NCBI RefSeq assembly: GCF_023897065.1
Contig: NZ_JAMHIV010000004.1
Span: 1-64,000, forward strand
Direction: 5' to 3'
Source: Crossiella sp. SN42
GTDB taxonomy: Bacteria > Actinomycetota > Actinomycetes > Mycobacteriales > Pseudonocardiaceae
Length of the DNA: 64,000 bases
Each line of letters opens with the position of its first letter. Within the stretch, counting starts at the first letter, position 1. The translations under genes and the position numbers were made by a program. This document shows, in pieces, positions 18,312 to 63,708 of this stretch. The notes under the pieces were generated by a model, which was not told the origin of the DNA, ran no database searches, and saw only the letters and a list, made by a program, of their open reading frames with translations.

Positions 18312-19019
18312 ATGCCTCCGATCGATGGCGAGTCCACTGTGGTCACGGAGCCCGCTGTGGTGCGGGCTGTGCTGATGGACCCACGCTATTTTGTGCCAAC
18401 TTGGCACCGCCACCCTCGACCAGGTGAACCCGCTGGCGAGGCGGATATGGCCTGGTTACGGGCTTCTGTGGCCCGGTTCAGCGACGGTTCGGCGCATGAA
18501 CGGCGACGCTCCTTAGCATGTGCCGAGCTGGCACACGTACACACGATGGGGTTGTTCCACTTGGCAGCGGCGAATCCGGCCGCCGAGCCGGTAGTGGTGC
18601 TGGCTGAGGCCATGGGGCTGACCGGGGTGCGGGCCGCCGCCGTCGCGGCCGTGGCCAGGGCTTATCACCCGCACACGGCGGCCGAGTCGACCCCGGAGAC
18701 CGATCGGGCGGTGGCGGAGCTGGTCGAGTGCTGCGGCGGGGCCGCCGACGAGCGCACCGCGGCCCGGATCTGCCTGCTGGTGCAGGCTTCCGCGGCGACC
18801 GCGGCCCTGCGCGCGGCGGTCCAGGCGCACGGCTCGGTCGAGGCCGCGCTCCGGCTGGCCCCACCGGTCCCGCACACCAGGCGGATCGGCCAGGACGGCG
18901 CCGAACTGCTGCTCGAACTCAGCGGCGACCTTGCTTTCGGCGCGGGCCAACACGCCTGTCCCGGCCGCGCCCACGCGCTCGCCCTGGTGGCGGGCCAACT
19001 CGGAGAGGACTGCCCATGA
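18312..19019 (+). CDS. Miniature cytochrome P450-like protein
   Basis: 235 residues, about 60% of a normal P450. The heme-ligand loop is intact: FGAGQHACPGRAHALALV with Cys216, matching FGxGxHxCxG. A MDPRYFVP segment and an SDGSAHERRR segment resemble the B-C region (normally H..xR). The I-helix acid-alcohol pair is missing (LVQASAATAAL). In the K-helix equivalent VEAALRLAPPVPHTRR, the normally invariant Glu of ExxR aligns with Ala. It probably binds heme but may not be a classical monooxygenase. It is coupled to the next gene by an ATGA overlap and divergent from the ArsR-type regulator. Confidence 0.75.
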   Translation: MPPIDGESTVVTEPAVVRAVLMDPRYFVPTWHRHPRPGEPAGEADMAWLRASVARFSDGSAHERRRSLACAELAHVHTMGLFHLAAANPAAEPVVVLAEAMGLTGVRAAAVAAVARAYHPHTAAESTPETDRAVAELVECCGGAADERTAARICLLVQASAATAALRAAVQAHGSVEAALRLAPPVPHTRRIGQDGAELLLELSGDLAFGAGQHACPGRAHALALVAGQLGEDCP

Positions 19020-19783
19020 CCACCGCCTTCCACGCCCTGCACACGGGCCCGGAACCCTTGCTGCTGCCCAACGCCTGGGACTTCGGCTCCGCCGCGATGC
19101 TGGCCGGGGCCGGTTTCGCCGCGGTCGGCACCACCAGCCTCGGCGTCGCGGTCGCCGCCGGACTGCCGGACGCCCAGGGCGCAGCCCGCGCGGAAACCCT
19201 TGCCCTGGCCCGGTTGCTGACCCGGCTGCCCTGCCCGGTGACGGTGGACATCGAGGCCGGGTTCAGCGCGGACCCAGCCGAGGTCGGCGCGCTGGCCGCG
19301 GAACTGGCCAGGCTGGGGATAGCGGGCGTCAACCTCGAGGACGGGCGCTATGCTGGCCTGGCTGATCCCGGACAGCAGGCCGAGTTGATCAGCGCGGTGC
19401 GGGTGGCGGCACCAGGTCTCTTCCTCAACGCGCGCACCGACACCTACTGGCTCGGCCCGGGCGACCTCGCGGAGACCCTGCGGCGGGTGCGCCGCTACGT
19501 CGCGGCGGGCGCGGACGGGATGTTCGTGCCCGGACTCACCGAGACCGCGGACATCCAGCGGCTGGTCGGCGAGGCCGGGGCACCGGTGAACCTGTTGTTC
19601 GTGCCAGGGCGGCACAGCGTGGCTGAGCTGGGCGAGCTCGGGGTGCGCCGGGTGAGCACCGGGTCCCTGCTGTTCCGCGCGGCGCTGCGGGCGGTGGTGG
19701 ACACGGCGGCCGCGGTGCGCGACGGCGAGCCGATCCCGGCAGTGCCCGGCTATGCCGAGGTGGATCGACTCACGGCAAGGTGA
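19016..19783 (+). CDS. Isocitrate lyase/PEP mutase superfamily protein
   Basis: 255-residue TIM-barrel protein of the ICL/PEPM superfamily. It shows LLLPNAWDFGSAAMLAGAGFAAVGTTS, VTVDIEAGFSADP (the metal-binding Asp/Glu strand), GVNLEDGRY and LFLNARTDTYWLG. It lacks the KKCGH catalytic loop of true isocitrate lyases. Members like this cleave or rearrange small oxo acids or phosphonates, and the substrate here is unknown. It is translationally coupled (ATGA) to the mini-P450. The 3' end overlaps the convergent lipoprotein gene by 14 bp. Confidence 0.85.
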   Translation: MTTAFHALHTGPEPLLLPNAWDFGSAAMLAGAGFAAVGTTSLGVAVAAGLPDAQGAARAETLALARLLTRLPCPVTVDIEAGFSADPAEVGALAAELARLGIAGVNLEDGRYAGLADPGQQAELISAVRVAAPGLFLNARTDTYWLGPGDLAETLRRVRRYVAAGADGMFVPGLTETADIQRLVGEAGAPVNLLFVPGRHSVAELGELGVRRVSTGSLLFRAALRAVVDTAAAVRDGEPIPAVPGYAEVDRLTAR

Positions 19784-20498: not shown

Positions 20499-20514
20499 GG
20501 TTTTCCTCCCCAGT

Positions 20515-20560
20515 TTGAGCGTTCGCTCAATATGAAAGCAGTTCTTAAGCGATTGCTCAA
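20515..20560. promoter_or_regulatory. Two tandem 16-bp operator-like palindromes
   Basis: TTGAGCGTTCGCTCAA (20515-20530) is a perfect 7-2-7 palindrome. TTAAGCGATTGCTCAA (20545-20560) is a diverged copy. Their centres are exactly 30 bp apart, about three helical turns. The half-site TTGAGCG with a short spacer looks like TetR-family operators. No TetR gene is adjacent; the nearest is at 30788. They lie between the divergent lipoprotein and GNAT genes and close to their likely promoters. Confidence 0.6.
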
Positions 20561-20610
20561 GTCTTGCCGGGCGTGATCGGCTGGCCGGACCGCGAGCAGA
20601 GGAGCTGGGG

Positions 20611-21048: not shown

Positions 21049-21052
21049 CCGC

Positions 21053-22408
21053 TCAGAGCCGCTCGAAGCCGCGGCGCAGCTCCCAGTCGGTGACCGCGGC
21101 GGTGAAGGCGTCCAGCTCGGCCTGGGCGGCCCTGGCGTAGTGGCCGACCACCTCGGCGCCGAAGGCGGCCTCGGCGACCGGGCTGGTCCGCCACAGGTCC
21201 AGGGCGGTGGCCAGGTCCGGTGGCAGGGTGCGGCCCTCGGCGCTGAAGGCGTTGCCCCGGAAGGGTTCTTCGAGTTCCAGGCGTTGCTCGATGCCGTGCA
21301 GGCCCGCGGCGATGACCGCGGCGACCGCGAGGTAGGGGTTGGCGTCGCCGCCGGGGACGCGGTGTTCCAGGCGCAGCGACTCGCCCTGGCCGACCACCCG
21401 GATCGGGCAGGTGCGGTTGTCCCGGCCCCAGCCGAGCACGGTGGGCGCGAACGCGCCGGGGGCGAACCGCTTGTAGGAGTTGACGTTCGGGGCCTGGAAC
21501 AGGACCAGCTCCCTGGCACAGGCCAGCGTGCCGGCGAGGAAGTGCCGCATCAGCGCGGACATCCCCGCGCCTTGCGCGAACACCGGCCGGTCGTCCCTGT
21601 CGCGCAGGGACAGGTGCAGGTGGCAGGAGTTGCCCTCGCCGGTGTCGAACTTGGCCATGAAGGTCAGCGCCTGACCGTGCGCGGCCGCGATCTGCTTGGC
21701 GCCGGTCTTGTACAGTACGGTGTTGTCGCAGGTGGTGAGCGCGTCCCGGTGGCGGAACACGATCTCGTACTGGCCTGGGTGACATTCGCCGCGCGCGGAC
21801 TCCAGGCGCAGTCCGGCGCGCACCATGTCCCGGCGGATGCGGTTGACCAGTGGGTCCACATCGGACAGTCCGGCCACCGCGTAGTCCACGTTGTGCCGGG
21901 TGGCCGGGCGCAGGTCCTGGTAGCCGCGGCCCCATGCGGTCTGGTAGTCCTCGCGGAAGACCAGGAACTCCAGCTCGGCGCCGACCTGTGCGGACAGGCC
22001 GAGGGCGGCGAGCCGGTCGAGCTGGGCGCGCAGGACCTGCCGGGGTGCCACGGTCACCGGGTCGCCGCCGGGCCAGTGCGCGTCGGCGAGCACCAGCGCG
22101 GTGCCCTCGTCCCAGGGCAGCAGGCGCAGCGTGGCCGGGTCGGGGATGAGCGTGAAGTCGCCGAATCCCGTTGCGGCGGCGTCGATCGCGTAGCCGGGGC
22201 CGGTAGTCATGTCCACGTCGACGGCGAGCAGGTAGGCGCAGGCCGCGGTGACTCCGGCCGTGTCCAGGTAGTGCTCGGCGTCCACCCGGCTGCCGACCAG
22301 GCGGCCGGTGAGGTCGGGCAGGGCGACGATCACGTTGTCCACCAGGCCCTCGGCCACCGCGGCCCGCAGCCGTTCCGGCGGCAGCGGGACCGGCTGGCGG
22401 GTGGTCAC
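21053..22408 (-). CDS. Glutamine-synthetase-family gamma-glutamyl ligase (GlnA3/GlnA4/PuuA-like) in the siderophore operon
   Basis: 451 residues with an N-terminal beta-grasp domain (VIVALPDLTGRLVGSR) and the GS catalytic barrel: VGAELEFLVF (metal Glu), GQYEIVFRH, TFMAKFDTGEGNSCHLHLSL, NSYKRFAPGAFAPTVLGWGRDNRTCPIRVV and LEHRVPGGDANPYLAVAAVIAAGLHGIEQ. It belongs with GS-like ligases that glutamylate polyamines or ethanolamine rather than housekeeping GlnA. GTG 22408 overlaps the stop of the hydroxylase gene (GTGA), so it is the fourth cistron of the diaminopropane pathway operon. Possible jobs are glutamylating surplus 1,3-diaminopropane or adding glutamate to the siderophore. Neither is proven. 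Confidence 0.85.
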   Translation of the reverse strand: MTTRQPVPLPPERLRAAVAEGLVDNVIVALPDLTGRLVGSRVDAEHYLDTAGVTAACAYLLAVDVDMTTGPGYAIDAAATGFGDFTLIPDPATLRLLPWDEGTALVLADAHWPGGDPVTVAPRQVLRAQLDRLAALGLSAQVGAELEFLVFREDYQTAWGRGYQDLRPATRHNVDYAVAGLSDVDPLVNRIRRDMVRAGLRLESARGECHPGQYEIVFRHRDALTTCDNTVLYKTGAKQIAAAHGQALTFMAKFDTGEGNSCHLHLSLRDRDDRPVFAQGAGMSALMRHFLAGTLACARELVLFQAPNVNSYKRFAPGAFAPTVLGWGRDNRTCPIRVVGQGESLRLEHRVPGGDANPYLAVAAVIAAGLHGIEQRLELEEPFRGNAFSAEGRTLPPDLATALDLWRTSPVAEAAFGAEVVGHYARAAQAELDAFTAAVTDWELRRGFERL

Positions 22409-23682
22409 GGGGCCCCGAAGGTGGTGAAGGCGGTGCGTTCGGGCAGGCGGTGCACGGTGCGGCCGGTGACCGCGTTGAGGATGGTGGCCGCCCGCCAGGC
22501 GCCCAGGGTCAGGTCCGGTGCGCCGACGCCGTGTGTGTGCAGCTCGCCGTTCTGCACGTACAGGCCGCCGGTGACCGCCGGGTCCAGCTCGATCCGGTAG
22601 TCGGCGCCGATGCGGTGGCGGTGGCTGTCGTCCCAGTGCACGAGGTGGCCCAAGGGGCCCAGGAACGGTGGTACGCTCGCGGCGTAGCCGGTGGCGAGGA
22701 CTACTCGGTCGGTGTCCACTGTGTACGGCCGGTCCTGCTGGATCTCGTGGCAGCCCAGGCGATAGCGGCCATCGACCTGTGCGACCGTGCGGATCTCGGT
22801 GTGCGGGTTCAGCTGCGCGGGCACTGCCCCGCCGCCGATGGTGCGTTCGTAGAGCAGGTCGTGGATCTCGGCCAGGGTGTCCACGCTGACCGCCTTGTAC
22901 AGCTGCCACTGCGCAGGCACGAGTCTGTCCCTTGTGGACGGTGACAAGCCGCGGAAGTAGCTGGTGTAGTCCGGGGTGAAATGTTCCAGGCCGAGCTTGG
23001 AGTACTCCATCGGCGCGAACCGGCCCCTGGTCAGCCAGCGCACCCGGCTGCCGGTCTCCGGCTGGCGGCGCAGCAGGTCGAGGAACACCTCGGCACCGGA
23101 CTGGCCGGAGCCGACCACGGTGACGTCGGCGGCCGCGGTGAGCTCGGGCAGGTTCGGCAGGTAGTCGGCGGCGTGGCAGATCTCCTTGCCCAGCAAGGGC
23201 CGGAACGCCTCGGGCACCCGCGGCTGGGTGCCGACGCCGAGCACCACGTTGCGGGCCAGCAGCTCTCCCCCGCTGTGCGTGACCCGGAAGGCGCCGCGGC
23301 CCGCGTCCCAGGACACCGCGGTGACCTCGGTGCCGAAGCGGCAGGAGGGCAGGGACTCGGCGACCCAGCGGCAGTAGTGGTCGTACTCGCGGCGCGGCAC
23401 GTGGAAGCGTTCGGCGAAGAAGAACGGGAACATCCGGTCGTGCTCGCGCAGGTAGTTCAGGAAGGACCAGCGGCTGGTCGGGTCGACCATGGTGACCAGG
23501 TCGGCCAGGAACGGCACCTGGAGCTGGGCGCCGTCGATGAGCAGCCCCGGGTGCCAGCTGAACTCGGCGCGCCGGTCCAGGAACACCGCGTCCAGGCCGG
23601 GCACCGCGTCGGCCAGCGCGGCCAGGCCCAGGTTGAACGGGCCGAGCCCGATCCCGGCCAGGTCGTGCACGTGCGCGCTCAT
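22405..23682 (-). CDS. Diamine/lysine N-hydroxylase (RhbE/IucD family flavin monooxygenase)
   Basis: 425-residue flavin- and NADPH-dependent N-hydroxylating monooxygenase. The FAD loop GIGLGPFNLGLA is at residues 10-21. FSWHPGLLIDGAQLQVPFLADLVT and SFLNYLREHDR are typical of IucD/SidA/PvdA. The NADPH loop VVGSGQSGAEVFLDL and the late ATGY motif (VVLATGYAASVPPFL) are present. By context it hydroxylates N of 1,3-diaminopropane. It is coupled by an ATGA overlap to the decarboxylase upstream and by GTGA to the GS-like gene downstream. N-hydroxylase family is firm; substrate is inferred from neighbours. Confidence 0.9.
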   Translation of the reverse strand: MSAHVHDLAGIGLGPFNLGLAALADAVPGLDAVFLDRRAEFSWHPGLLIDGAQLQVPFLADLVTMVDPTSRWSFLNYLREHDRMFPFFFAERFHVPRREYDHYCRWVAESLPSCRFGTEVTAVSWDAGRGAFRVTHSGGELLARNVVLGVGTQPRVPEAFRPLLGKEICHAADYLPNLPELTAAADVTVVGSGQSGAEVFLDLLRRQPETGSRVRWLTRGRFAPMEYSKLGLEHFTPDYTSYFRGLSPSTRDRLVPAQWQLYKAVSVDTLAEIHDLLYERTIGGGAVPAQLNPHTEIRTVAQVDGRYRLGCHEIQQDRPYTVDTDRVVLATGYAASVPPFLGPLGHLVHWDDSHRHRIGADYRIELDPAVTGGLYVQNGELHTHGVGAPDLTLGAWRAATILNAVTGRTVHRLPERTAFTTFGAP

Positions 23683-25307: not shown

Positions 25308-26677
25308 CGGCTCGCTCCGCGGTCCACCGCGGTCACGGCCTCGCCCAGGCGGTTGAGCACGCTGGTGGCCTCCTGGTCGGTGATGGTCAGTGGGGGCAGC
25401 AGCCGGACCACCGAGTCGCCCCGGCCGCCCAGCTCCAGGATCAGGCCGCGGTGCAGGCATTCCGCGCGGATCGCGGCGGCCAGTTCCGGGGCGGCCGGGC
25501 GGGCGCCGAGGGCGTCCGGGGTGGCGTCCGGGTTGACGATTTCCAGGCCCAGCATGAGGCCGCGGCCGCGGACCTCGCCGATGCAGGAGGAGTTTCCTTG
25601 CAGGACGCGGAGTTCGGCCAGCATCCTCTTGCCCAGGTCGGCGGCGCGGGCGGACAGGTCCTGTTCGGCGACGAAGCGCAGGGTGGCCGCGCCGGCGGCC
25701 ATGGCGAGCTGGTTGCCGCGGAAGGTGCCGGTGTGCGCACCGGGCAGCCAACTGTCCAAAGTGGACTTATAGACGATCACCGCGAGGGGCAGGCTGCCGC
25801 CGATGGCCTTGGACAGCACCATGACGTCCGGGGTGATCCCGCTGTGCCGCACGGCCCAGAACTCGCCGGTGCGGCCGACGCCGGTCTGCACCTCGTCCAC
25901 GATGAGCGGAATCCCGTGCTCTTCGGTGATCCGGCGCATGTCGCGCAGCCAGCTGTCGGGGCTGGGGATGACTCCGCCCTCACCTTGCACCGCTTCCAGT
26001 ATCATGGCGGCGGGTGGCAGGACCCCGGAGTGGCTGTCGGTGAGCAGCGACTCGACCAGGCGCGCGCCGATGTGGTGCGCCTGCGGGCCGCCGAGGCCGA
26101 ACGGGCAGCGGTAGTCGTAGGGGTAGGGCAGCCGGGTCACGTTGAACCCGTTGTCCGCCAACGGCTCGCGCACCGCGATGTTGCCGCTGGCAGCGAGCGC
26201 GCCCGCGGTCATGCCGTGGTAGGCGCCGGTGAAGGCGAGCACGTTCTGCCTGCCGGTGGCGGTGCGGGCGAGCTTGAGCGCGGCCTCCACCGCGTCGGTG
26301 CCCGCCGGGCCGCAGAAGTGGATCCGGCAGTCCGCGGCCAGTTCCGGTGGCAGGGTGCCCAGCAGCGCGGTGGTGAAGTCGTCCTTCTCCGGGGTGCTGA
26401 TGTCCAGCGCGTGCAGTGGCGCGCCGGAGTCGAGCACCCGGCGGATCGCGGCCAGCACCACCGGGTGATTGTGGCCCAGCGCCAGGGTGCCGGCGCCGGC
26501 CAAGCAGTCCAGGTACTCGCGGCCGTCGGCTCCGGTGACGCGCAGGCCGTCGGCGTGCACCGGGACCACCGGGAAGCTGCGGGCGTAGGTGCGCGCGGCG
26601 GACTCGCGATCCCGTTGCCTGCCCAGCACCGCCGCGAGGTCGACCTCCGCGTGCGCGGCGTCGGTCCAGGCTGTCAT
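25304..26677 (-). CDS. Diaminobutyrate--2-oxoglutarate aminotransferase (RhbA/EctB-like class III)
   Basis: 457-residue class III aminotransferase. PLP Lys290 lies in VLSKAIGGSLPLAV. Other family phrases are YLDCLAGAGTLALGHNHP, FCGPAGTDAVEAALKLART, FTGAYHGMTAGALAASGN, LEAVQGEGGVI, LIVDEVQTGVGRTGEFWA and GTFRGNQLAMAAG. This is the diaminobutyrate aminotransferase pattern (EctB, RhbA, Dat): it makes 2,4-diaminobutyrate from aspartate semialdehyde with glutamate. No ectA or ectC is nearby, whereas a decarboxylase, an N-hydroxylase and siderophore enzymes are, so siderophore synthesis is favoured over ectoine. ATG 26677 overlaps the stop of a 37-codon leader ORF (TGATG). Confidence 0.88.
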   Translation of the reverse strand: MTAWTDAAHAEVDLAAVLGRQRDRESAARTYARSFPVVPVHADGLRVTGADGREYLDCLAGAGTLALGHNHPVVLAAIRRVLDSGAPLHALDISTPEKDDFTTALLGTLPPELAADCRIHFCGPAGTDAVEAALKLARTATGRQNVLAFTGAYHGMTAGALAASGNIAVREPLADNGFNVTRLPYPYDYRCPFGLGGPQAHHIGARLVESLLTDSHSGVLPPAAMILEAVQGEGGVIPSPDSWLRDMRRITEEHGIPLIVDEVQTGVGRTGEFWAVRHSGITPDVMVLSKAIGGSLPLAVIVYKSTLDSWLPGAHTGTFRGNQLAMAAGAATLRFVAEQDLSARAADLGKRMLAELRVLQGNSSCIGEVRGRGLMLGLEIVNPDATPDALGARPAAPELAAAIRAECLHRGLILELGGRGDSVVRLLPPLTITDQEATSVLNRLGEAVTAVDRGASR

Positions 26678-30787: not shown

Positions 30788-31459
30788 GTGACCGTGACCA
30801 AGGCGGCCAAGTCCGCTCCTGCGGCGGACCGGATCCGGCGGGCGGCGCTGACCCTGTTCGCGGCGAAAGGCTTTCACGGCACCGGGATCCGGGATCTGGC
30901 CGAGGCGGCCGGGCTGTCCTCGGCCAGTCTGTACCACTACATGGGCACCAAGGAGGACCTGCTGCTGCGGATCATGCGCGAGTGCATGGCCCGGCTGCTG
31001 ACCGCGGGCCATCGGGTGGTCACGGGGGATCCGGATCCGCGGTCGCGGCTGGCCGGGCTGGTGCAGGTGCACGTGCTCAGTCACGCGCTGCATCCGCTGG
31101 AGACCGCGGTGGTGGACCACGAGCTGCGGGCCCTCTCCCCCGCCGCGCGGGCGAGCGTGGTGGCGCAGCGGGACGAGTACGAGGACCTGTGGCGGGCGGC
31201 CATCGAGGAGGGTTGCGCCAGTGAGGTGTTCCGCAGCTCGGCGCCCGCGGTGACCCGGTTGGCGCTGCTGGAGATGTGTGGCGGGGTGGCCCGCTGGTAC
31301 TCACCGCGTGGCAGGCTGGCGCTGACCGAGTTGGCCGTGCACTACACCGAGATCGCCTTTGGTGCGCTGCGCGCCGAACCGTCCACAGTGGACACCGAGG
31401 CGGCGCGGCTGCGGACCGGGCTGGTCAGCGAGGTGTGGGGCGGGGCAGTGCGTCGTTGA
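30788..31459 (+). CDS. TetR/AcrR-family transcriptional regulator
   Basis: 223 residues. The N-terminal TetR HTH (about 12-60) reads RIRRAALTLFAAKGFHGTGIRDLAEAAGLSSASLYHYMGTKEDLL. The larger C-terminal ligand domain resembles the acyl-CoA-responsive KstR2/FadR-like group (HPLETAVVDHELRALSPAARASVVAQRDEYEDLW). GTG 30788 has GAGGAG 6 nt upstream. It lies just beyond the 3' end of the valine operon, with one small convergent gene between, so it is a candidate regulator of that operon; the sequence does not prove this. The 3' end overlaps the convergent membrane-protein gene by 35 bp and contains a perfect GTCCACAGTGGAC. Confidence 0.88.
   Translation: MTVTKAAKSAPAADRIRRAALTLFAAKGFHGTGIRDLAEAAGLSSASLYHYMGTKEDLLLRIMRECMARLLTAGHRVVTGDPDPRSRLAGLVQVHVLSHALHPLETAVVDHELRALSPAARASVVAQRDEYEDLWRAAIEEGCASEVFRSSAPAVTRLALLEMCGGVARWYSPRGRLALTELAVHYTEIAFGALRAEPSTVDTEAARLRTGLVSEVWGGAVRR
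31381..31393. repeat. GTCCACAGTGGAC, type copy of a recurrent 13-bp palindrome
   Basis: Perfect palindrome around a central base, in frame TCC-ACA-GTG-GAC (Ser-Thr-Val-Asp). Other perfect copies are at 45074-45086 and 62890-62902. Variants with a mismatch in the arms or centre are at 18332, 22714, 22927, 25754, 31662, 33818, 51967, 62051 and 63457 (start positions). All lie in coding sequence, in the same reading register on whichever strand is coding. ACA, ACT, ATT and TTG codons inside it are otherwise rare here. Confidence 0.8.
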
Positions 31460-31877
31460 GCGTCTCGCCGGTCGGTGTGCGCGCGGTGCAGACCAGCGGT
31501 TGTCCCGGTTCCGCCGTCCTGGTGGCCAGCACGCGTTCGCGGCTGCGACCCTTGTCCAGGGTGATCACGCAGCTCAGGCCGGCGGCCGGGTCGGCGATGC
31601 TGACCCTGGCCTCCGCGCCGGGTGGGATGGCCACCTCTTCCTTCCACGGCAGCGAGACACCGTCCACAGTGGTCTGCACCGGTGGCTTGTCCCGGTCGCC
31701 GGTGGGCTGATCGAGGTACTCGATCCGGGCCGGGGCGACCGCGCCGGAGACCTCGTAGGTGACCGCGTAGATGTCGATCGGCCGATACACCACGGTGAGC
31801 AGGTAGGTCACGTAGACCACCACGACCAGGCCCACCACGCCGAGTGAGGCCAGCAGCGTCTTCGCCCACGGCTTCAT
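31425..31877 (-). CDS. Small membrane-anchored protein, MmpS-like
   Basis: 150 residues. One N-terminal transmembrane helix (about 7-30, LLASLGVVGLVVVVYVTYLLTVV) is followed by an extracytoplasmic beta domain (VTYEVSGAVAPARIEYLDQ, VSLPWKEEVAIPPGAEARVSIAD). The pattern is that of MmpS-type accessory proteins: a single helix, then a strand with VTYEV.G. There is no MmpL transporter next to it. One Cys in the middle and one near the end could pair. The gene is convergent with the TetR gene. The similarity is from pattern only; function uncertain. Confidence 0.65.
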   Translation of the reverse strand: MKPWAKTLLASLGVVGLVVVVYVTYLLTVVYRPIDIYAVTYEVSGAVAPARIEYLDQPTGDRDKPPVQTTVDGVSLPWKEEVAIPPGAEARVSIADPAAGLSCVITLDKGRSRERVLATRTAEPGQPLVCTARTPTGETLNDALPRPTPR

Positions 31878-33617: not shown

Positions 33618-34651
33618 GCCGAACCTCCGAACACGGGCTGCTGTCCTGGCTTCGGGGTGAAGTACTCCTCGACCGCGGCGTCGGAGACCTCGGCCAGGGT
33701 GGCCGGCTGCCAGGTCGGGTTGCGGTCCTTGTCGATGACCGCGGCGCGGATGCCCTCGGCCAGGTCCGGCGCGGTGAGGAACCGGCTGACCAGGCGGTGC
33801 TCCAGGTTCAGGCATTCCTCCACAGTGGACAGTTCGCGGGCGGTGCGCAGCGCGCGCAGGGCGACCTTGACCGCGGTGGGCGCCTTGGCCTGGATCTCCT
33901 TGGCCGCGGCCTCGGCTCCCGGGTGCCCGCTGCCGTGGAGGTTGGCCAGGATCTGCTCGACGGTGTCGGCGGCGTAGCAGGAGTCGATCCACTCGCGGTC
34001 CTCGGCGAGCTGACCCGCCGGCGGGGTCTCCGCGCGGGCGGCGATCTCCACCAGCAGCTGATCGGCGGGCAGTTCGGCCAGATCGGGCAGGGCCGCGCTG
34101 GGCAGGTACTGGTCGGCCAGGCCGCACAGGATCGCGTCCGCGGCGCCGATCCGGCCGCCGGTGAGCGCGAGGTGGGTGCCCAGCTCGCCGGGCGCGCGGG
34201 AGAGCAGGAAGGTGCCACCCACGTCGGGGATGAAACCGATGGAGACCTCGGGCATGCCGATCGCGGTCCGCTCGGTGACCACCCGCACGCTGCCGTGCGC
34301 GGACACCCCGACCCCGCCGCCCATGACCAGGCCGTCCATGAACACCGCGTACGGCTTGGGGTAGTTCGCGATCAGCGCGTTGACCTGGTACTCCTCGCGC
34401 CAGAACGCGATCGGCCCGTCGGTGCCGTCCTGGATCGCCTGGTAGATCGAGCGGATGTCGCCGCCGGCGCACAGGCCGCGCTCGCCCGCGCCGTCCAGCA
34501 GCACCGCGTGCACCGCTGGGTCGTTCGCCCACGAGGTGAGCGCCTTGCCCATCTCGCGCAGCATGTCGTCGCTGAGCGCGTTGATCGCGCGCGGCCGGTT
34601 CAGGGTGATCCGGCCGACGCCACCGGTGACCCTGATCAGGATGTCGTTCAC
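33614..34651 (-). CDS. 3-hydroxyisobutyryl-CoA hydrolase
   Basis: 345-residue crotonase-fold hydrolase of the HIBCH type, about 90 residues longer than hydratases. Signatures are GRITLNRPRAINALS, LCAGGDIRSIY, MDGLVMGGGVGVSAHGSVRVVTERT and MPEVSIGFIPDVGGTFLLSR. The HIBCH-like C-terminal extension has STVEECLNLEHRLVSRFL and GIRAAVIDKDRNPTW. It frees 3-hydroxyisobutyrate from CoA so MmsB can oxidise it. GTG 34651 overlaps the acyl-CoA dehydrogenase stop (GTGA). Confidence 0.92.
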   Translation of the reverse strand: MNDILIRVTGGVGRITLNRPRAINALSDDMLREMGKALTSWANDPAVHAVLLDGAGERGLCAGGDIRSIYQAIQDGTDGPIAFWREEYQVNALIANYPKPYAVFMDGLVMGGGVGVSAHGSVRVVTERTAIGMPEVSIGFIPDVGGTFLLSRAPGELGTHLALTGGRIGAADAILCGLADQYLPSAALPDLAELPADQLLVEIAARAETPPAGQLAEDREWIDSCYAADTVEQILANLHGSGHPGAEAAAKEIQAKAPTAVKVALRALRTARELSTVEECLNLEHRLVSRFLTAPDLAEGIRAAVIDKDRNPTWQPATLAEVSDAAVEEYFTPKPGQQPVFGGSA

Positions 34652-44453: not shown

Positions 44454-44475
44454 AGTTTCACAAACTCATGAAGTT
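44454..44475. promoter_or_regulatory. Overlapping inverted repeats between MFS and P450 genes
   Basis: AGTTTCACAAACT (44454-44466) is a perfect 5-3-5 inverted repeat. AACTCATGAAGTT (44463-44475) is a 4-5-4 repeat sharing the middle half-site. The result is three alternating AGTT/AACT half-sites about 9-10 bp apart in an AT-rich pocket just upstream of the P450 start. It may be a second, internal promoter or operator for the P450/ferredoxin/GT genes. Confidence 0.4.
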
Positions 44476-45694
44476 AATGTTCCGTATAAATCCGTCGGCG
44501 GACGGCCGGCCCGATGGCGAGCGCGCCGGCCGCGCCGAGCAGGCCGAGGACGAGGCAGCCGGTCCAGGCGGCGGCCGGTCCACCGTGCTGGTAGACCCAG
44601 GTGCCCAGCAGCGGCCCGGTGAGCGCGGCGGCGCTGAACCCGAAGCCGATGGCGGCCTGGTAGCGGCCGCGCGCGGCCGGTGGCGCGAGGTCGGCGGCCA
44701 GCGCGCCGAGCAGTCCGGCCATGGCGATCTCGCCGAGGGTCCACACCACCACGGTCAGCACGTACTCCAGCGCGGTCTCGGCCAGTCCGGTGAGCGCCAT
44801 GCCGATGCCGACCACGGCCCAGGCGATGGCGAGCACCCGCATCCGGTCGAAGCGCGCCACCCAGGTGCTGGCCAGCGGTTGCAGGATGACGATGAGCACG
44901 CCGTTGACCGCGACGATGCTGCCGTAGCCCGCCGCGCCGAGCCCGGAGTCCTTGATGGCCAACGGGATGATGACCTCGGCCTGGGTGTAGACGGTGGCGT
45001 GCACCAGGACCAGCAGCACCAGCCCGAGCAGCAGCCGGTCCCGCAGCAGCGCGCGCAGCCCGAACACCGGAGTGTCCACAGTGGACTTGACCACGCGTTC
45101 GGCGGACTTGGGGATGCCGAGGCCGACGATGACCGCGAAGGCGGTGCAGCCGGTGGCGTTGAGCGCGAACAGCAGCCAGTAGCCGGAGTCGGCGAGGTGG
45201 CCCGCCATCACGCTGGCCACCGAGAAGCCGAGGTTGATGGCCCAGAACTGGAGCCCGTAGGCCTTGGTGAGCAGCGGCCGTTCCACCACGTCGGCGATCA
45301 GCGCGGCGGCGGCCGGGCGGAAGATGTCGGCCGCCACGCCGTGCAGGAAGGCCGCGCCGATCAGCAGCGGCAGGCTGTGCACCGCGCCGAGCAGCATCAG
45401 GCAGCCCGCACTGGACAGCAACCCGAGCATCAGGGTGAACCGGCGGCCGACCCGGTCGGTGAGCACCCCGCCGAGGGGCTGGCTGAACAGCGCGCCGACG
45501 CCCTTGGCCGCCAGCACCAGGCCGACCTGGTCCAGGGGGATGCCCATGGCGGTCAGGTAGAGCACGAGGAAACCGGCGACCACGCCGCCGATGCGGTTGA
45601 CCAGGCTGCCGTAGAACAAGATCCAGAACGGCCGCGGCAGACCGGCGAAGGGCCCGGTCCGCGCGGGGCTGGCGGGGGTGGTCTCGATGCTCAC
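44474..45694 (-). CDS. MFS transporter
   Basis: 406 residues, about 12 hydrophobic helices. It has the MFS motif A in the loop after helix 2 (GGVLTDRVGRRFTL). The helices group six plus six around a polar central loop (IPKSAERVVKSTVDTPVFGLRALLRDR), which contains a perfect 13-bp GTCCACAGTGGAC at the DNA level. The type is that of drug/metabolite exporters. GTG 45694 is the start; the ribosome-binding site is weak. It is divergent from an ArsR-type regulator across a 20-bp operator-like palindrome and 37 bp upstream of the P450. Confidence 0.9.
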   Translation of the reverse strand: MSIETTPASPARTGPFAGLPRPFWILFYGSLVNRIGGVVAGFLVLYLTAMGIPLDQVGLVLAAKGVGALFSQPLGGVLTDRVGRRFTLMLGLLSSAGCLMLLGAVHSLPLLIGAAFLHGVAADIFRPAAAALIADVVERPLLTKAYGLQFWAINLGFSVASVMAGHLADSGYWLLFALNATGCTAFAVIVGLGIPKSAERVVKSTVDTPVFGLRALLRDRLLLGLVLLVLVHATVYTQAEVIIPLAIKDSGLGAAGYGSIVAVNGVLIVILQPLASTWVARFDRMRVLAIAWAVVGIGMALTGLAETALEYVLTVVVWTLGEIAMAGLLGALAADLAPPAARGRYQAAIGFGFSAAALTGPLLGTWVYQHGGPAAAWTGCLVLGLLGAAGALAIGPAVRRRIYTEH

Positions 45695-47784: not shown

Positions 47785-48828
47785 TCATTCCCGCAGCTCG
47801 TCCCACCACCAGGCCACCGTCGGGTAAGGCAGCGGCTCCGGGCGCGGGTCCAGGGGCGTCTCCGACCACCCAGGGCTGCCCAGCCCCTGGTAACGCGGCA
47901 CCCGCAGCGCCCAGTCGATGTTGCCCCTGATCCCGTGCCCCAGACAGTCCACATAGGACCGAAGCGGCGCGGAACCGCCCCGCCGCACCCGTTCCGCCAA
48001 GCGCAGGAACAGGCTCATCAAGCGGTCCCTGATGCCCACCGCGGCCAGCACCGCCTCCTCCAGGGAGCGCTCGGACCCGGTGCGCAGCACGGTGACCAGG
48101 TTCTGCTCGGTCTGGCCCAGCAGCCTCTCCTTGCGGTAGGAGTGCAGGTCGTTGTCCAGCGCGGCCACCATGCTGGCGCAGTCGGTGAGCGCGCGGACCC
48201 GTGGTGAGTCCATCTCCGACGATGGCACCTCCTCGCCGAGGCCGATCTCCAGCATGGCCATGGTGGGCGGGCCGCCGCTGGTGCCCAGGCGCATGCTCAG
48301 GTACTCGTCCAGGCCGGGCATCCGGCCGGTGGCGCGGTTGGCCACCTGCCAGGCCACCGCGAACAGCCAGCGCCGGTGCGCCTCGGTGAAGCGGCGGACC
48401 TGGGTCGGGGTGGCGCAGCCGCGGAAACGGGCGCCGATGTCGTGCAGGGCAAGGGCGTACGGGTCGGTCAGGCCGGCGCGCGCCGGATTTTCCAGCGCCT
48501 GCTGGACTTTCGCCGCCTCCGGCAGGAACTGGGCCGGGTTGGCGGAGAGCACGCCGGTGTCGCAGCGGACGTCGTCGAAGGCGAAGCCCCAGTACACCCA
48601 CAGCGTCGCGGCCAGCACGTTGTGCGTGGCGCCGGTGGGCACAAAACGGCAGAAGAACTCGGCGCTGCGGGTGCCGAGCAGACGTTTGCGCGACACCCCC
48701 GGCAGGGCCATCCGGTCCAGCCAGGCCACGGCGCGCTGCTCGATGTCGGCGACCGCGGGGTGCACGGCGGGCTCGATCGGGCAGTAGCAGGGCAGCAGCT
48801 CGAAGTCCTGTTCCAGCGGCTGGGTCAC
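47785..48828 (-). CDS. Class I terpene synthase
   Basis: 347-residue bacterial terpene cyclase. The Asp-rich metal motif is DDVRCD (Asp85, Asp86, Asp90) and the NSE triad is N226-D-L-H-S230-Y-R-K-E234. The RY-like effector region and the C-terminal WWDELRE end look intact. The length is that of single-domain sesqui- or monoterpene cyclases. GTG 48828 overlaps the ispG stop (GTGA), so the precursor gene and the cyclase are translationally coupled. The product cannot be predicted from sequence; geosmin synthase is excluded because that protein has two domains. Confidence 0.9.
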
Positions 48829-50395: not shown

Positions 50396-53300
50396 ATGCG
50401 ACATCCCGGGAAGAGAACACTGCCGGTCGCCGCGCTGGCGACCGCACTGCTGGCACTGGGCGTGCCCGCCCTCGCCGACCCCGCCCCGCCCGGCCCGCCG
50501 CCGGGCGGAGCCGCCACCGGCGGCCTGCGGACCATCACGCTGATCACCGGCGACCAGGTGCACGTGGACGACCGCGGCCGTCCGGTGCACGTCGAGGCCG
50601 GGCCGGAGCGCACCGGCACCGCCTTCCGCAGCTGGACCGAGCAGGGCCAGTGGCAGGTGCGCCCCAGCGACGCCGAGGCGCCGGTGCGCGCGGGCCGGGT
50701 GGACCCGCGGCTGTTCAACATCAGCCTGCTGCTGGAGTCCGGCTACGAGGACGCCAAACGAGCGGACGTGCCGCTGCTGCTGGCCGGGGACAACGCCCGT
50801 TCCGCGCCCAGCGCCCTGGAGGGCACCACCCGGACCAGGGAGCTGCCCGCGCTGGGCCTGACCGCGGTGTCCGCGCCCAAGAACACCGCGGTCCGCACCT
50901 GGAACACGGTCAAGGAACAGGCGCGCGCCCGGTCCACCGGCAAGGTGTGGCTGAACGCGACGCTGAAGTACACCCTGCACGAGAGCGTGCCGCTGATCGG
51001 CGCGCCCGCCGCCTGGCGGGCCGGGCACACCGCCAAGGACGTGCCGGTGGCGGTGCTGGACAGCGGCATCGACGTGGACCACCCGGACTTCGCCGGGGTG
51101 CTCAAGCAGGCCAAGGACTTCTCCGGCTCCCCGCACGGCATCAAGGACACCATCGGGCACGGCACGCACGTCTCCTCCATCGTCGCCGGCAGCGGCGCGG
51201 CCGGGGGCGGCAAGCAGGTCGGCGTGGCCAAGGACGCGAAGCTGCTCTTCGGCAAGGTCGGCGACTTCGGACCCACCGAGGACGCCGCGCTGGCCGGGAT
51301 GACCTGGGCCGCGGCCGAGCACAAGGCCAAGGCGGTGAACATGAGCTTCGGGCTCCGGCAGACCCAGCCGGACCCGGTGAGCGAGGCCATCACCCGCCTC
51401 TCCGCCGAGCACGGCACGCTGTTCGTGATCGCCGCGGGCAACAGCGGCGAGCAGGAGCCGGTCGGCCACCCGGCGACCGCGGACGCCGCGCTCGCGGTGG
51501 CCAGCTCCACCAAGGACGGCAGGCTCAGCGACTTCTCCTCGCGCGGCCCGCGGGCCGGGGACTACGGGCTCAAGCCGGAGATCGCCGCGCCGGGCGGCGA
51601 GATCCTGGCCGCCAAGGCCGGCTCCGGGGGCGGCGAGCGGTACCAGGCGATGTCGGGCACCTCGATGGCCGCCCCGCACGTGACCGGCGCGGCCGCGGTG
51701 CTGGCCGGGGCGCACCCGGACTGGAGCGCGGCCCGGCTGAAGGCGGCGCTGATGAGCACCGCCAAGCCGCTGGCCGGCGTGTCCGTGCACGGCCAGGGCG
51801 CCGGCGTGGTCGACCTGGACCGCGCCACCAGGCAGCAGGTGACCGCGGAGACCGGCGGCCTGTCCCTGGGCTACTTCACGTGGCCGCACCAGGGCCAGCA
51901 GCCCGCGAGCAAGGACGTGGTGTACCGCAACGACGGCGACACCCCGGTCACCCTGGACCTCGCACTGTCCATTGTGGACAAGCAGGGCGGCGCGCCGGAT
52001 CCCGGCCAGTTCGGGCTGAGCACGCAGCGGATCACCGTGCCCGCCAAGGGAACCGAGAAGGTCAGCCTCACCGCGGACCCCGGCAAGCGGGTCGGCCTCT
52101 ACGGCGGCTGGCTCACCGCGACCGCCGGGGACGTGGTGGTGCGCACCGCGGTCAGCTCCTACGTGGAGGAGGAGCGCTACGACCTGACGGTGAAGGTCAC
52201 CGGCCGCGACGGCAAGCCGGTCACCGACCAGCACGAGGCCACGCTCACCGTGACCGACCTGCGCGACGGCAGCAGTCAGCAGCTCTCGCCCGGTGCGGAC
52301 GGGGTGGCCACCCTGCGCGCCGCCAAGGGTGACTACCAGCTCAGCAGCACCATCAAGGAGTACGACCAGCGCGGGGTCGAGCAGGCCGACCCGGTCTCGC
52401 TCACCCAGCAGGTCGCGCCAAAACTGCGGCTGGACAAGGACATCACGCTCAACGTCGACGCGCGCACCGCGAAGCGGGTGGAGGTGGAGCTGGACGATCC
52501 GAGCCTGCGGGTCACCGGGATCGAGCTGAGCGCGGTCTCCGGCGGCAAGTCCTCAGCGCTGTTCCCGCCGTTCACCGACACCGACGCGCCGGTCTACCTC
52601 GGCTCGCTCGGCGGCTCGGCCCCGGACTTCCGGCACCTGACCCACGTGACCGCCGCGCGCCCGGAGATCAGCGCGGAGCTCGTTGCCCCGCAACGGCTTC
52701 CGCTCGGTGTGTGGCGCAACCGGTCCTCGCCGCAGCTGCTCGGCGAGCACACCCTGCCGGTGGTGGACGTCAAGGCGGGCGACCCGGCGGACCTGGCGGG
52801 CAAGGACGTCAAGGACAAGCTGGCCCTGCTGACCCCGCCGGTCCGGGAGGACGCCGTCGACCGGATCACCGCGGTGGCCAAGGCGGGCGCGAAGGCGGTG
52901 CTGCTGGTCGAGCCCAGCCGGGTGCGACCGCAGACGAAGCTGCCGCTGCCGGTGCTGGGCAGCACCGAACACCGCCTCACCACCCTGCGCGAGCTGCTGG
53001 CCAAGGGCCCGGTCTCGATGCGGCTCAACGGGATCGCCACCAGCCCGGTCAGCTACGACCTGGCCTTCACCAGCTCCGGCACGATGGCCGAGGGCGGCAA
53101 GCTGCGCGCGCACCGGCACCAGCTGAGCCGGATCGAGGCCACCTACCGCGAGGACGGGATCACCAGCACCTTCCGGCCCACCTGGCGTCCGGGCCTGGAC
53201 GGGCCGGTCGCCGCGGAGATCCCGGACAGCTACCCCTTCCGCGAGGGCGCGCCGCCGGTGCCGGCCGGGGCCACCCGCACCGAGTACGTGACGCCGGGCT

Positions 53301-58117: not shown

Positions 58118-58161
58118 GGACATTCCCTCCACGGATCGAACTACGGAATTCGTTTTCGCGC

Positions 58162-59764: not shown

Positions 59765-59775
59765 CAGAGGTCCTT

Positions 59776-61520: not shown

Positions 61521-62623
61521 CAGCGCACCCCCGTGGAGACCGCGGGCACGCCGTCCACCGGCGGCAGCGGCAGCACCGGCTTGGCCGCGTTGTCCGGTTT
61601 CGGCTGGGTCCGCTGTTGTGGTTGCTGTGCCTCAGGTCCTGGGTTCTTGACGTGCAGGGTGAGGTAGGTGTTGAGGTAGTCGCCCTTGATCGCGTTGAGC
61701 GCGGCGTCCGGGAACGGGTAGGTGAACAGGATCTCCAGTGACTGCGGCAGGTTCTGCCCCGCCTCCACCAGTCGTTGCAGGATCGGTTGCAGCGCCTTGA
61801 GATCGGCCACGAAGTCGTCCTTGCTGCGCCGCACGGTGTCCACCGCGACCTTGCCCATCTTGTCCAGCGCGGCCAGCATCGCCACCATCGACTCCCGCTG
61901 CTCGTGGAAGACCTGGAGGCCGGGGCCGAGGTCGGTGATGGCCTTGTCGATCTGCCCGGTCCGCCCGGCCAGCACGGTGTTGAGCCGGTTCATCCCGTCC
62001 AGGGCCTTGGTCAGGCTCTCCTTGTTCTGGTCCAGCTGGGTGACGAACTTGTCCATTGTGGACAGCAGCGCCTTGAGCTGGGTCTCGTTGCCGTCGAAGG
62101 CCGAGGCCAGCTCGCGGCTGATGTCCCGCAGCTGCTGCACCCCGCCGCCGTTGAGCAGCAACGACAACGCGCCGAAGACCTCTTCCACCTCGGGGTTGCG
62201 GTTGGTCCGACTGACCGGGATCACCGCCCCGTCGGCCAGCATCGCGGTGTCCGCGCCCTGCTCGGCGGGCCGGGCCAGCTCCACGTACTTCTCGCCCAGC
62301 AGGCTGGACTGCCGCAGCCTGGCCAGTGCCGCGGCGGGCAGCTTCACCTCTCCGTTGACCGCGACCGTGACGTCCACGGTGCGCCCGTCCTCGGCCAGCT
62401 CGATCCGCTCCACCTTGCCCACCGCGACGTCGTTGACCTTCACCGCGGCCTGCGGCACCAGGTCCAGCACGTCCCGGAACTGCGCGGTGACCCGGTAGGG
62501 CCGCTCGCCGAGGTCCGCGCCGCCGGGCAGCGGCAGGTTGTACAGCCCGTCGAACCCGCCGACGCCGCACCCGGTGGCCAGCAGCGCCACCGCGCCCAGG
62601 GCCAGGATCTGTTTGCGCATCAC
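61520..62623 (-). CDS. mceE: MCE-family lipoprotein MceE (LprK-like)
   Basis: 367 residues. A lipoprotein signal peptide has the lipobox LLATGC (Cys19). The MCE domain (YRVTAQFRDVLDLVPQAAVKVNDVAVGKVERIEL to SLLGEKYVELARP) and a coiled helical region follow. The C-terminus ends in a Pro/Gln-rich tail (QQPQQRTQPKPD). The lipobox identifies it as the E subunit. Start GTG 62623 overlaps the mceD stop (GTGA). Two GTCCA-type 13-mers lie in or next to this gene. Confidence 0.92.
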   Translation of the reverse strand: MMRKQILALGAVALLATGCGVGGFDGLYNLPLPGGADLGERPYRVTAQFRDVLDLVPQAAVKVNDVAVGKVERIELAEDGRTVDVTVAVNGEVKLPAAALARLRQSSLLGEKYVELARPAEQGADTAMLADGAVIPVSRTNRNPEVEEVFGALSLLLNGGGVQQLRDISRELASAFDGNETQLKALLSTMDKFVTQLDQNKESLTKALDGMNRLNTVLAGRTGQIDKAITDLGPGLQVFHEQRESMVAMLAALDKMGKVAVDTVRRSKDDFVADLKALQPILQRLVEAGQNLPQSLEILFTYPFPDAALNAIKGDYLNTYLTLHVKNPGPEAQQPQQRTQPKPDNAAKPVLPLPPVDGVPAVSTGVR

Positions 62624-63708
62624 CGTTCTCCTGCCGGGAGGGTGTGCAGGTCGCCGACCACCGGCAGCGGCAGCACGGGCAACTTCTTGGCATCCGCGCC
62701 CGCACTGACCGGGACCAGCCTGGTCTTGGCCTTCGGCGAGAGCTCCAGCAGGTTGACCCGCCCGTCGATGACCCGCTGCTCCGGGTTGTAGGCGTTGAGC
62801 AGGTTGGTCATCGCCAGCGGGGCCACGTCCAGGGCCTCGGCCAGTGCGGAGCGCTGGTCGGCCAGCACCTTGGTGATCCCGGTGAGCTTGTCCACTGTGG
62901 ACTTGACGCGACCGCGGTGCTCGCCGATGAACTCGCCGACCTGGCCGAGCGCGGCGGGCAGCTCGGCCAGCGCGGCGCGCAGCGCGTCCCGGTCGGCGGC
63001 CAGGAAGCGGGTGACCTCGGCCAGCTGTTGTTCGGCCGCGACCACCTGGTTGTCGTTGCGGGCCAGCATGCCGGTGAACTTGGCCAGGTTGTCCACGGTG
63101 CCGAACATGTCCTGCTGCGAGCCGTCCAGGGTCTTGGCGGCCTGGCCGAGGTCGCGGAACAGCTTGTTCAGCGCGGCCCCGTTGCCTTCCAGGTTGGCCG
63201 CGCCGGTCTCCAGCAGGCTGGAGAGCGCGCCCTCCTTGTTGGCCCCGTTGGGTCCCAGCGCGGTGGCCAGCTTCTCCATGCTCTCGTAGAGCTGGTCCAG
63301 CTCCACCGGGCTGGCGGTGCGCTCGACCGGGATCACCGCGCCGTCGGCCAGGACCGGCCCGCCGCGGTAGACCGGGGCCAGCTGGAGGTAGCGGTCGGAG
63401 ACCAGGCTGGGCGCGATCGAGACCACCTTGGCCTCGGCCGGCGCTTTCACCCCACTGTCCAAAGTGAACTCGACGCGGACCCGTTGTCCTTGCGGCTCAA
63501 CGGAGTCGATGGTGCCGACCCGCACGCCGAGCATCCGCACGTCGGATCCGGCGTACACGCCGACCGCGGCGGCGAACCAGGCGGTGGCCCGCACCCGCTC
63601 GGCGCCGCCGCGCCACCACCACACCCCGGCCACCCCGGCGACCAGGGCGAGCACCGCCACCCCGATCAGCACCCGGGTTCCCTTGCCACGACTGCGGAAC
63701 CAGCTCAT
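62620..63708 (-). CDS. mceD: MCE-family protein MceD
   Basis: 362 residues. An N-terminal helix (about 12-30, RVLIGVAVLALVAGVAGVWWW) and an MCE domain (TAWFAAAVGVYAGSDVRMLGVRVGTIDSVEPQG to SLVSDRYLQLAPV) are followed by a helical domain (LDQLYESMEKLATAL, VDKLTGITKVLADQRSALAEALD). ATG 63708 overlaps the mceC stop (ATGA). A longer ORF start at 63789 lies inside mceC and is rejected. Confidence 0.92.
   Translation of the reverse strand: MSWFRSRGKGTRVLIGVAVLALVAGVAGVWWWRGGAERVRATAWFAAAVGVYAGSDVRMLGVRVGTIDSVEPQGQRVRVEFTLDSGVKAPAEAKVVSIAPSLVSDRYLQLAPVYRGGPVLADGAVIPVERTASPVELDQLYESMEKLATALGPNGANKEGALSSLLETGAANLEGNGAALNKLFRDLGQAAKTLDGSQQDMFGTVDNLAKFTGMLARNDNQVVAAEQQLAEVTRFLAADRDALRAALAELPAALGQVGEFIGEHRGRVKSTVDKLTGITKVLADQRSALAEALDVAPLAMTNLLNAYNPEQRVIDGRVNLLELSPKAKTRLVPVSAGADAKKLPVLPLPVVGDLHTLPAGER

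Follow-up and report, generated by a model that had tools for sequence, protein, structure and literature searches.

A palindrome iterated in the coding DNA of Pseudonocardiaceae, and a PadR-family protein as its candidate binding partner

The genome to which our window belongs (the window being the whole stretch of 64,000 nucleotides analysed) measures 9.72 Mb and contains the 13-bp palindrome GTCCACWGTGGAC 473 times in exact form, mostly within genes; the reversed sequence, taken as a control, has 0 copies. Comparison of genomes makes it probable, in our view, that a homodimeric winged-helix protein of the PadR family, PadR-X, binds the palindrome at its dispersed sites and acts as a nucleoid-associated protein. 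The evidence that links this highly iterated coding-DNA palindrome to a candidate protein is evolutionary, and comes from a family rich in antibiotic producers.

The palindrome and selection on the DNA itself

An earlier note, made from the window alone, had counted at least 12 copies or near-copies, and all 12 coordinates and sequences proved correct (three exact, seven with one mismatch and two with two mismatches). Several copies, two of them absent from that earlier list, belong to an extended form of the motif, GTCCNNWGTGGAC, which occurs about once per 8.6 kb. In the following list, reading frames are those of a simple gene caller built for this analysis.

31381..31393, + strand: exact copy, GTCCACAGTGGAC, within the + strand gene 30596-31459, reading P-S-T-V-D-T
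45074..45086, - strand: exact copy within the - strand gene 44474-45694, reading K-S-T-V-D-T
62890..62902, - strand: exact copy, GTCCACTGTGGAC, within the - strand gene 62620-63789, reading K-S-T-V-D-K
51967..51979, + strand: extended-motif copy, GTCCATTGTGGAC, S-I-V-D, one mismatch to the 13-mer
62051..62063, - strand: extended-motif copy, GTCCATTGTGGAC, coding strand S-T-M-D, one mismatch to the 13-mer
25754..25766, - strand: extended-motif copy, GTCCAAAGTGGAC, S-T-L-D, one mismatch to the 13-mer
21854..21866, - strand: extended-motif copy, GTCCACATCGGAC, S-D-V-D, absent from the earlier list
47947..47959, no strand: extended-motif copy, GTCCACATAGGAC, intergenic, absent from the earlier list
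22927..22939, no strand: extended-motif copy, GTCCCTTGTGGAC, intergenic, two mismatches to the 13-mer
18332..18344, - strand: one-mismatch copy, GTCCACTGTGGTC, T-T-V-D
31662..31674, - strand: one-mismatch copy, GTCCACAGTGGTC, T-T-V-D
33818..33830, - strand: one-mismatch copy, CTCCACAGTGGAC, S-T-V-E
22714..22726, - strand: one-mismatch copy, GTCCACTGTGTAC, in a different frame (V-H-S-G), a weak member
63457..63469, - strand: two-mismatch copy, GTCCAAAGTGAAC, F-T-L-D, a weak member that may be due to chance

The earlier statement that each copy reads TCC-ACW-NTG-GAC applies to ten of the 12 (NNG TCC ACW GTG GAC or a close variant), and 'each' was slightly too strong, since the copy at 22714 is in another frame and that at 22927 is intergenic. 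The fixed frame would follow from selection at the level of DNA, because among the three frames only G TCC ACW GTG GAC keeps G/C at most third positions. Across the genome, the copies are nearly invariant at CC, at the centre (strictly W, i.e. A or T) and over one full GTGGAC arm, with the rest loose, a strict N1 spacing between the arms and no conserved flank outside the motif. In a 1.264-Mb sample, versions centred on G/C were depleted (12 observed, 24.4 expected from shuffles). In a separate count, which allowed up to three mismatches to the 13-mer, 34 were found and 22.9 expected; the signal is carried by the exact and one-mismatch copies, and the three-mismatch count is weak evidence.

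In the same sample, which represents 13% of the genome, there were 41 genic exact copies, compared with a mean of 0.55 (maximum 2) in 60 synonymous-codon shuffles, an excess of about 75-fold and a gross one by the codon-aware standard that a HIP-like element would call for. The recurrence is thus beyond chance, as had been claimed. Could it nevertheless reflect convergence of proteins on Ser-Thr-Val-Asp, or a chance product of codon usage? It is true that 40 of the 41 genic exact copies read STVD, and that the shuffles ignore codon-pair bias and are exceeded, by about three-fold, by further palindromes too, CTGGCCAG among them. Against this stand the size of the excess, the occurrence of intergenic copies (5 of 46 exact ones in the sample) and the conservation of rare third positions within the motif, so that this explanation is already refuted and deserves almost no credence. 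ACA or ACT encodes the threonine in 46 of 49 STVD peptides, against 4.8% of all threonine codons, and is somewhat raised (20/124) where STV is followed by a residue other than D. Neither of the two outcomes that the earlier note had named as telling against its idea (counts at shuffle level, and ordinary use of ACA/ACT in STVD-like peptides) was seen in this sample. Its list of rare codons holds for ACA and ACT (2.4% each) and ATT (2.6%), while TTG makes up 6.3% of leucine codons.

Comparison of 463 kb of one contig with a single relative (95% identical) gave 8 mismatches in 684 motif positions, the centre excluded, and 157 in 2280 flanking positions (P=1e-10), or about six times fewer in the motif. 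ACW codons had changed other than by an A/T swap in 0 of 26 cases within the motif and in 128 of 361 outside it, and in none of the 26 had ACA or ACT become ACC or ACG. With so little change in the motif, and not one of its ACA/ACT codons turned into ACC/ACG, it is the DNA word, as judged from these alignments, and not the peptide STVD, that is conserved. Seven of eight control palindromic words had no such drop in change (the eighth has 4 sites); a comparison with an 82%-identical species spanned 24 kb only. The shuffles, the conservation against one near relative and the strict A/T centre all support the earlier suggestion of selection on the DNA itself. Motif sites also constrain protein sequence (STVD), and in these genomes rare codons and brief peptides that are conserved should be interpreted with caution.

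A/T swaps at the centre were seen in 3 of 18 exact copies and in 0 of 40 imperfect ones (P=0.026), as well as in 1 of 48 generic W-centred palindromes with arms of 6-7 bp; with only three cases, they might hint at inversion of the palindrome. Such swaps might also arise by strand exchange or repair, and this bears on the possibility that the palindrome is produced and maintained by an orphan DNA methyltransferase together with biased mismatch repair, and needs no binding protein, in the manner supposed for HIP1, which in the part of PMC4390886 drawn on here is likewise an iterated palindrome that is scarce in or missing from some lineages. But with its 13 bp, its gap and one loose arm, the site has the look of an operator bound by a dimer and not of a methyltransferase target, the one-off variants are unlike mutational decay (at position 2, T->C 0, T->A or G 15), and the promoter link described below would be left unexplained; we regard such an origin as unlikely.

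Nor are the copies plausible as operators of nearby genes in an ordinary regulon: 29 of 147 extended sites (GTCCNNWGTGGAC type) are intergenic, but this is no excess (P=0.16), most copies are intragenic, and they are spread evenly along the length of genes, all of which makes a regulon very unlikely. DnaA boxes, of sequence TTGTCCACA, were considered too: this 9-mer was found 7 times (1.1 in shuffles) and TGTCCACA 51 times (9.1), in counts that include motif copies, and the presence of a second arm at a strict N1 distance tells somewhat against this identity.

PadR-X and the promoter of its gene

The lead to PadR-X was a close pair of motifs in a genome from outside the family. A few close inverted pairs lie between convergent genes. 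Inverted pairs between convergent genes are also a feature of Neisseria uptake sequences, and the motif might be imagined as a selfish or uptake-driven repeat, or as decayed mobile palindromes; however, there is no conserved flank beyond the motif, the site itself is strongly conserved, and uptake sequences are, to our knowledge, not palindromic, which together leave this the faintest of the origins still entertained. As a general pointer to a binder gene, close pairs (16 listed loci, L256-L271) were rejected: the pair that is shared within the window's genus falls inside a helicase-nuclease-like gene whose SPSTVD seems, by eye, to be native protein sequence.

In the window's genome PadR-X has 166 amino acids and is encoded outside the window (G000:C8:121563-122057, - strand), directly before prfB and then an ftsE-like gene (ftsE named by eye). 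It scores 33.5 bits against PF03551 (cut-off 27), and by sequence it matches solved PadR chains (5X11, E=7.5e-18). Among 79 distinct named padR-X promoters (from 80 loci, one being skipped as short or duplicate), 78 have within 150 bp a site with at most two mismatches, where 0.016 would be expected per promoter, and 60 have two sites; prfB lies no more than 600 bp downstream in 78 of the 79 loci. In a wider set that includes promoters from outside the family, 50 of 54 have a site within 130 bp, and near-motif sites are absent upstream of seven weaker PadR matches (L307-L313). The promoter sites are usually paired, about 22 bp apart, at about -66 and -44. They share the invariant positions of the genomic copies (CC, W centre, full GTGGAC arm) as well as the loose ones, a likeness that is partly built in, because they were picked at two mismatches or fewer. 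Unlike the exact dispersed sites, the core sites are imperfect in every family promoter read (0 exact among the 79), although two promoters of genus g11 (g-numbers being arbitrary labels for genera), L301 and L304, have an additional exact copy further upstream; the four Pseudonocardia-type promoters that were read (L302, L303, L394, L434) have an eroded site or none.

Outside the family, nine of 245 genomes of the class have a strong homologue (E<1e-44). In four of these (G507, G446, G633, G417) exact copies lie about 110 bp or less upstream of the homologue, and five of the six exact sites listed in these four genomes are in that position. The other five have no exact site, and since three of them (G585, G484, G402) carry the same TRSQVYREL helix, recognition helix and site are not matched one to one. 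In two outside homologues the helix is altered to TQSQVYREL, and a palindrome related to the motif, TTCCACTATGGAA/-G, stands at the same place (by eye). From all this we infer that PadR-X binds the motif and represses its own gene, and that the binding protein sought in the earlier note is this PadR-family protein.

Distribution and a possible evolutionary course

The motif is over-represented in much of one family, taken from named loci to be the Pseudonocardiaceae, and at background level elsewhere in the class, and its restriction to this family was shown by sequence searches for the genomes covered. Genera range from about 500 copies through 150 and 50 to 0, the last being true of every one of the 18 genomes in genus g5. 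In the low-copy genome G001 (160 kb), the top palindromic word is GGCCAN6TGGCC (9, compared with 0.46), and relaxed forms of the motif have little if any enrichment (CCANWGTGGAC 2, CCANSGTGGAC 4, GTCCNNWGTGGAC 3). Viral contigs have single motif matches per stretch, among the matches listed. Our literature search, made mainly among open-access papers, listed no relevant report of the motif or of iterated palindromes in actinobacteria.

A search of 386 genomes for PadR-X, mostly with nine candidates scored per genome, left 29 with no match at 1e-15 (nine of the match-less genomes being identified by comparing two genome lists). They comprise all 18 genomes of g5, the genus with no motif, and 11 others. 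The latter include G096 and G099, 99% complete, with 146 and 142 copies, and the fragmented assemblies G175 (52 copies) and G207 (14 copies); these missing matches may be failures of search or assembly. Conversely, some genera (g2, g3, g7 and most of g30) have PadR-X but hardly any motif copies or none at all, so that possession of the protein is not enough to make copies spread.

It seems likely, from these distributions, that the spread of an autoregulator's operator over the chromosome gave rise to a nucleoid-associated role. The four outside genomes have exact sites almost solely in the homologue's own promoter, the pattern of an ordinary autoregulator. In many Pseudonocardiaceae the full palindrome has become fixed at between tens and hundreds of places, most of them intragenic. 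PadR-X would then be expected to occupy, in the window's genome, a site every 8-20 kb or so of the chromosome and to work as a nucleoid-associated protein with sequence specificity, autoregulating through weaker promoter copies. The benefit to the cell might be folding, replication or a coupling to division.

A more speculative extension, which we consider rather improbable, is that PadR-X serves as a chromosome counter. Several hundred high-affinity sites would titrate the dimer, and the weaker core sites kept in the promoter of padR-X (probably governing prfB and the ftsE-like gene too) would allow repression of the operon only when PadR-X exceeds DNA; translation termination and division genes would be coupled to chromosome content, and the bound dimers would also fold the nucleoid. 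The additional exact upstream copies in L301 and L304 make this slightly less probable. If true, it would mean that a transcription factor's autoregulatory operator had spread chromosome-wide within one family. The genera, some of them with PadR-X and one lacking it, carry about 500, 150, 50 or 0 copies and form a natural series in which to ask how an operator of local action could turn into an element of the whole genome, and why bacteria retain hundreds of sequence-specific intragenic sites.

Position along the chromosome and comparison with known systems

SlmA/SBS, Noc/NBS and MatP/matS each pair a DNA-binding protein with palindromic sites that are dispersed, many of them within coding DNA, and whose positions are coded relative to ter or ori. 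The earlier note had raised segregation as a role, and position-coded markers of segregation or division, of these types or of the KOPS type, might be suspected from the genes that follow padR-X (prfB and the ftsE-like gene) and from the 13-bp odd-palindrome layout, which we take to resemble matS. On a complete chromosome, unlike the sites of those systems, 201 sites picked by their flanking bases from 460 exact copies show a uniform distribution of distances from parS/ori (KS P=0.44), with neither depletion nor confinement at ter and no ter gap (the largest gap is 258 kb, with about 241 kb expected by chance). The arms are palindromic, and the centre base has no KOPS- or Chi-like strand bias along the replichores overall (114/201, P=0.07), although one subset of sites out of three shows a preference for one strand in each replichore (58/91, P=0.012; the others 32/55 and 24/55). 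The even spread of the mapped sites does not support a segregation role encoded by position, which we judge highly improbable.

The closest parallel in iteration is HIP1 (GCGATCGC) of cyanobacteria, also a highly iterated palindrome of one bacterial group that is rare in some lineages. HIP1 is contiguous, 8 bp long and tied to DNA methyltransferases in the part of PMC4390886 drawn on here, whereas our motif has 13 bp, a W centre, an arm that may be loose, and as its candidate partner a PadR transcription factor. As a precedent, a PadR-family nucleoid-associated protein, NapM, is reported from mycobacteria, related actinobacteria, in the corresponding part of PMC13340245, which names no dispersed sequence-specific site. 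NapM (8JXK) matches the PadR-X profile weakly (43.8 bits), and its recognition helix is different by eye, both of which speak somewhat against orthology. With the PadR regulators (PF03551) in general, PadR-X shares the winged-helix domain, above the curated cut-off, and, to judge by the predicted sites in 78 of 79 of its own promoters, probably autoregulation. Known PadR regulators act on few operators; unlike them, PadR-X has a candidate operator word with hundreds of copies, most of them within coding DNA.

The palindrome as a feature of the DNA

The 13-bp palindrome is a feature of the DNA. All 12 positions at which the earlier note had placed it in the window were correct (three exact copies, seven with one mismatch and two with two); the single coding frame claimed for them was kept by ten, the others being, according to our own gene caller, one in another frame and one intergenic. 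The preference for this frame calls for no particular explanation, because only in it are third positions mostly G or C. Recurrence of the 13-mer beyond chance was borne out by a scan of the whole genome for the exact motif (9.72 Mb, 82 contigs), which gave 473 copies and none of a reversed control.

Coding analysis used 1.264 Mb of this genome (contigs C1–C4 and C34, window included), with 46 exact copies, 41 of them genic; 40 of these 41 read STVD. Sixty synonymous-codon shuffles, preserving every protein and the codon usage of each gene, gave 0.55 (maximum 2) against the 41 genic copies. The rare codons noticed earlier in the shared tetrapeptide are equally real, as ACA or ACT is used in 46 of the 49 STVD peptides of the sample, compared with 4.8% of threonine codons. 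Such shuffles leave codon-pair bias uncontrolled, and other palindromes also exceed them, mostly few-fold, although the excess is about tenfold or more for TTGCNNNGCAA (47 versus 4.4) and for certain related or overlapping words.

Among 85 one-mismatch variants, hardly any change falls at position 3, position 4 or the centre (3, 1 and 0 variants, respectively), and positions 1, 2, 5 and 6 are variable; the one-base spacing between exact arms is strict. The extended motif with which we worked is GTCCNNWGTGGAC or its complement (a full arm, a partial arm and an A/T centre). Its genic occurrences in the sample number 118 (3 in shuffles), and the genic G/C-centred form is depleted (12 versus 24). 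The 147 extended sites per 1.264 Mb (about one per 8.6 kb, mean gap 8.4 kb) are spaced in near-Poisson fashion and distributed evenly along genes, with no intergenic excess (29 of 147 between genes, P = 0.16).

Three of 16 loci read with simple gene calls (L256, L261 and L268) have close inverted motif pairs, one A-centred and one T-centred, between convergent genes; these could fold as terminator hairpins. Elsewhere in the genome, at C3:90303-90784 (in L066), eight copies of the 13-mer AATGTGACCGGTC or its complement lie within about 480 bp, seven of them intergenic by our own gene calls, in what looks like an iteron array. TGGGAGCGCTCCCA, which we take to be a CebR-type operator, occurs nine times in the 1.26-Mb sample, on C1 and C2.

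Conservation and distribution

The complete genome G188, labelled as the same species, is 95.4% identical over 463 kb of contig C1. At 57 aligned extended sites, non-centre motif positions differ in 8 of 684 cases, compared with 157 of 2280 in the flanks. Inside the motif, 23 of 26 ACA/ACT codons were unchanged, three were A/T swaps and none had become ACC or ACG, whereas of 361 outside it 230 were unchanged, 87 had become ACC or ACG, three were swaps and 41 were otherwise altered. In seven of eight other palindromic words, over-represented ones included, divergence was not lowered to a similar degree (0.6–1.4 times that of the flanks), the eighth being uninformative with only four sites. The second gapped palindrome over-represented in coding DNA of the sample, TTGCNNNGCAA (also GTTGN5CAAC), retained its TTG codons in 35 of 38 cases (662 of 923 outside), and TTGCNNNGCAA as a whole did not clearly exceed its flanks in conservation.

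Centre A/T swaps were confined to exact palindromes (3 of 18, compared with 0 of 40 imperfect sites; P = 0.026), an excess that may reflect inversion of the palindrome or may simply mean that either base is tolerated.

Centre A/T swaps between G188 and the window's genome
C1:247444, exact palindrome
C1:276842, exact palindrome
C1:629401, exact palindrome

At least one copy is present in 326 of 390 Pseudonocardiaceae genomes, and more than two in none of the 294 outside genomes among 296 drawn from the class.

Motif copies per genome, by genus
Crossiella: 330–500 (5 genomes)
g9: 323–426 (3 genomes)
g21: 640 (1 genome)
g11: 6–293, mostly above 100 (80 genomes)
g30: 0–4 (62 genomes)
g5: zero in 18 of 18 genomes

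On the G188 chromosome, where parS at 9,166,395 marks the origin, the 201 sites mapped (selected by flanking bases from 460 exact copies) are uniform from origin to terminus.

PadR-X, a candidate binding protein

In G507, a genome outside the family, the region between a PadR-family gene and its divergent neighbour holds two exact copies, spaced by 33 bp. With this PadR as query in 24 genomes, 22 of 23 family genomes (G026 being the exception) gave an orthologue-like best match, 37–44% identical. Each of the 22 carries, no more than 400 bp upstream of the match, one or more copies with at most two mismatches, typically a pair spaced by about 22 bp; no such copy accompanies the seven weaker PadR matches. 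The protein, PadR-X, matches PF03551, and downstream of its gene come prfB (assigned by TIGR00020 at two loci) and, as read by eye, an ftsE-like gene.

Eighty named loci, one skipped, supplied 79 distinct promoters. Within 150 bp, 78 have a site with at most two mismatches and 60 have two, no promoter having an exact copy; prfB lies less than 600 bp downstream in 78. An additional exact copy, at about −113, is present in two g11 promoters of another set. The best named match is from Crossiella sp. S99.2 (96% identity), and almost all the others are from Pseudonocardiaceae, which is our basis for the genus and family names used here. L401 (Rhodococcus rhodnii NRRL B-16535) and L404 (a Melainabacteria bin), about 78–80% identical to the PadR-X of the window's genome and with family-type promoters, probably come from records that are contaminated or carry the wrong name.

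A profile search of 246 class genomes (our own included) found nine strong outside homologues (E < 1e-44). Four have exact copies directly upstream, one a copy with two mismatches, two a changed recognition helix with a related palindrome, and two, with the usual helix TRSQVYREL, degenerate matches only, by eye. Three of the outside homologues have this helix but no exact site, which very slightly lowers our confidence in PadR-X as the binding protein.

At E ≤ 1e-15, PadR-X is present in 357 of 386 family genomes and absent from all 18 zero-motif g5 genomes (15 listed directly, three deduced by comparing genome lists). Eleven other family genomes lack a match: seven have 0–3 copies, and G175 (52 copies) and G207 (14) are fragmented assemblies, but G096 (146) and G099 (142) weigh against the proposed model. 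In the other direction, few copies accompany the gene in g2, g3, g7 and most of g30. From this co-occurrence, PadR-X is perhaps necessary, and clearly not sufficient, for dispersal of the motif.

A possible nucleoid role, and known systems

The sequences themselves establish the motif, its conservation and spread, the promoter sites and the gene neighbourhood. We infer that PadR-X binds the motif, represses its own gene and has a role in the nucleoid. It would be an old autoregulator, the full palindromic site of which may have been selected many times over the chromosome in many Pseudonocardiaceae; such chromosome-wide selection leads us to propose PadR-X as a sequence-specific nucleoid-associated protein, possibly titrated by the chromosome itself. 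The publications searched did not yield the motif in a relevant sense, or iterated palindromes in actinobacteria. For NapM, a PadR protein of mycobacteria, a role in the nucleoid has been reported (PMC13340245); to judge from its sequence, PadR-X does not look like a NapM orthologue. HIP1 is a phenomenon of the same genre, but here the word and the host group are different, and there is a candidate transcription-factor partner.
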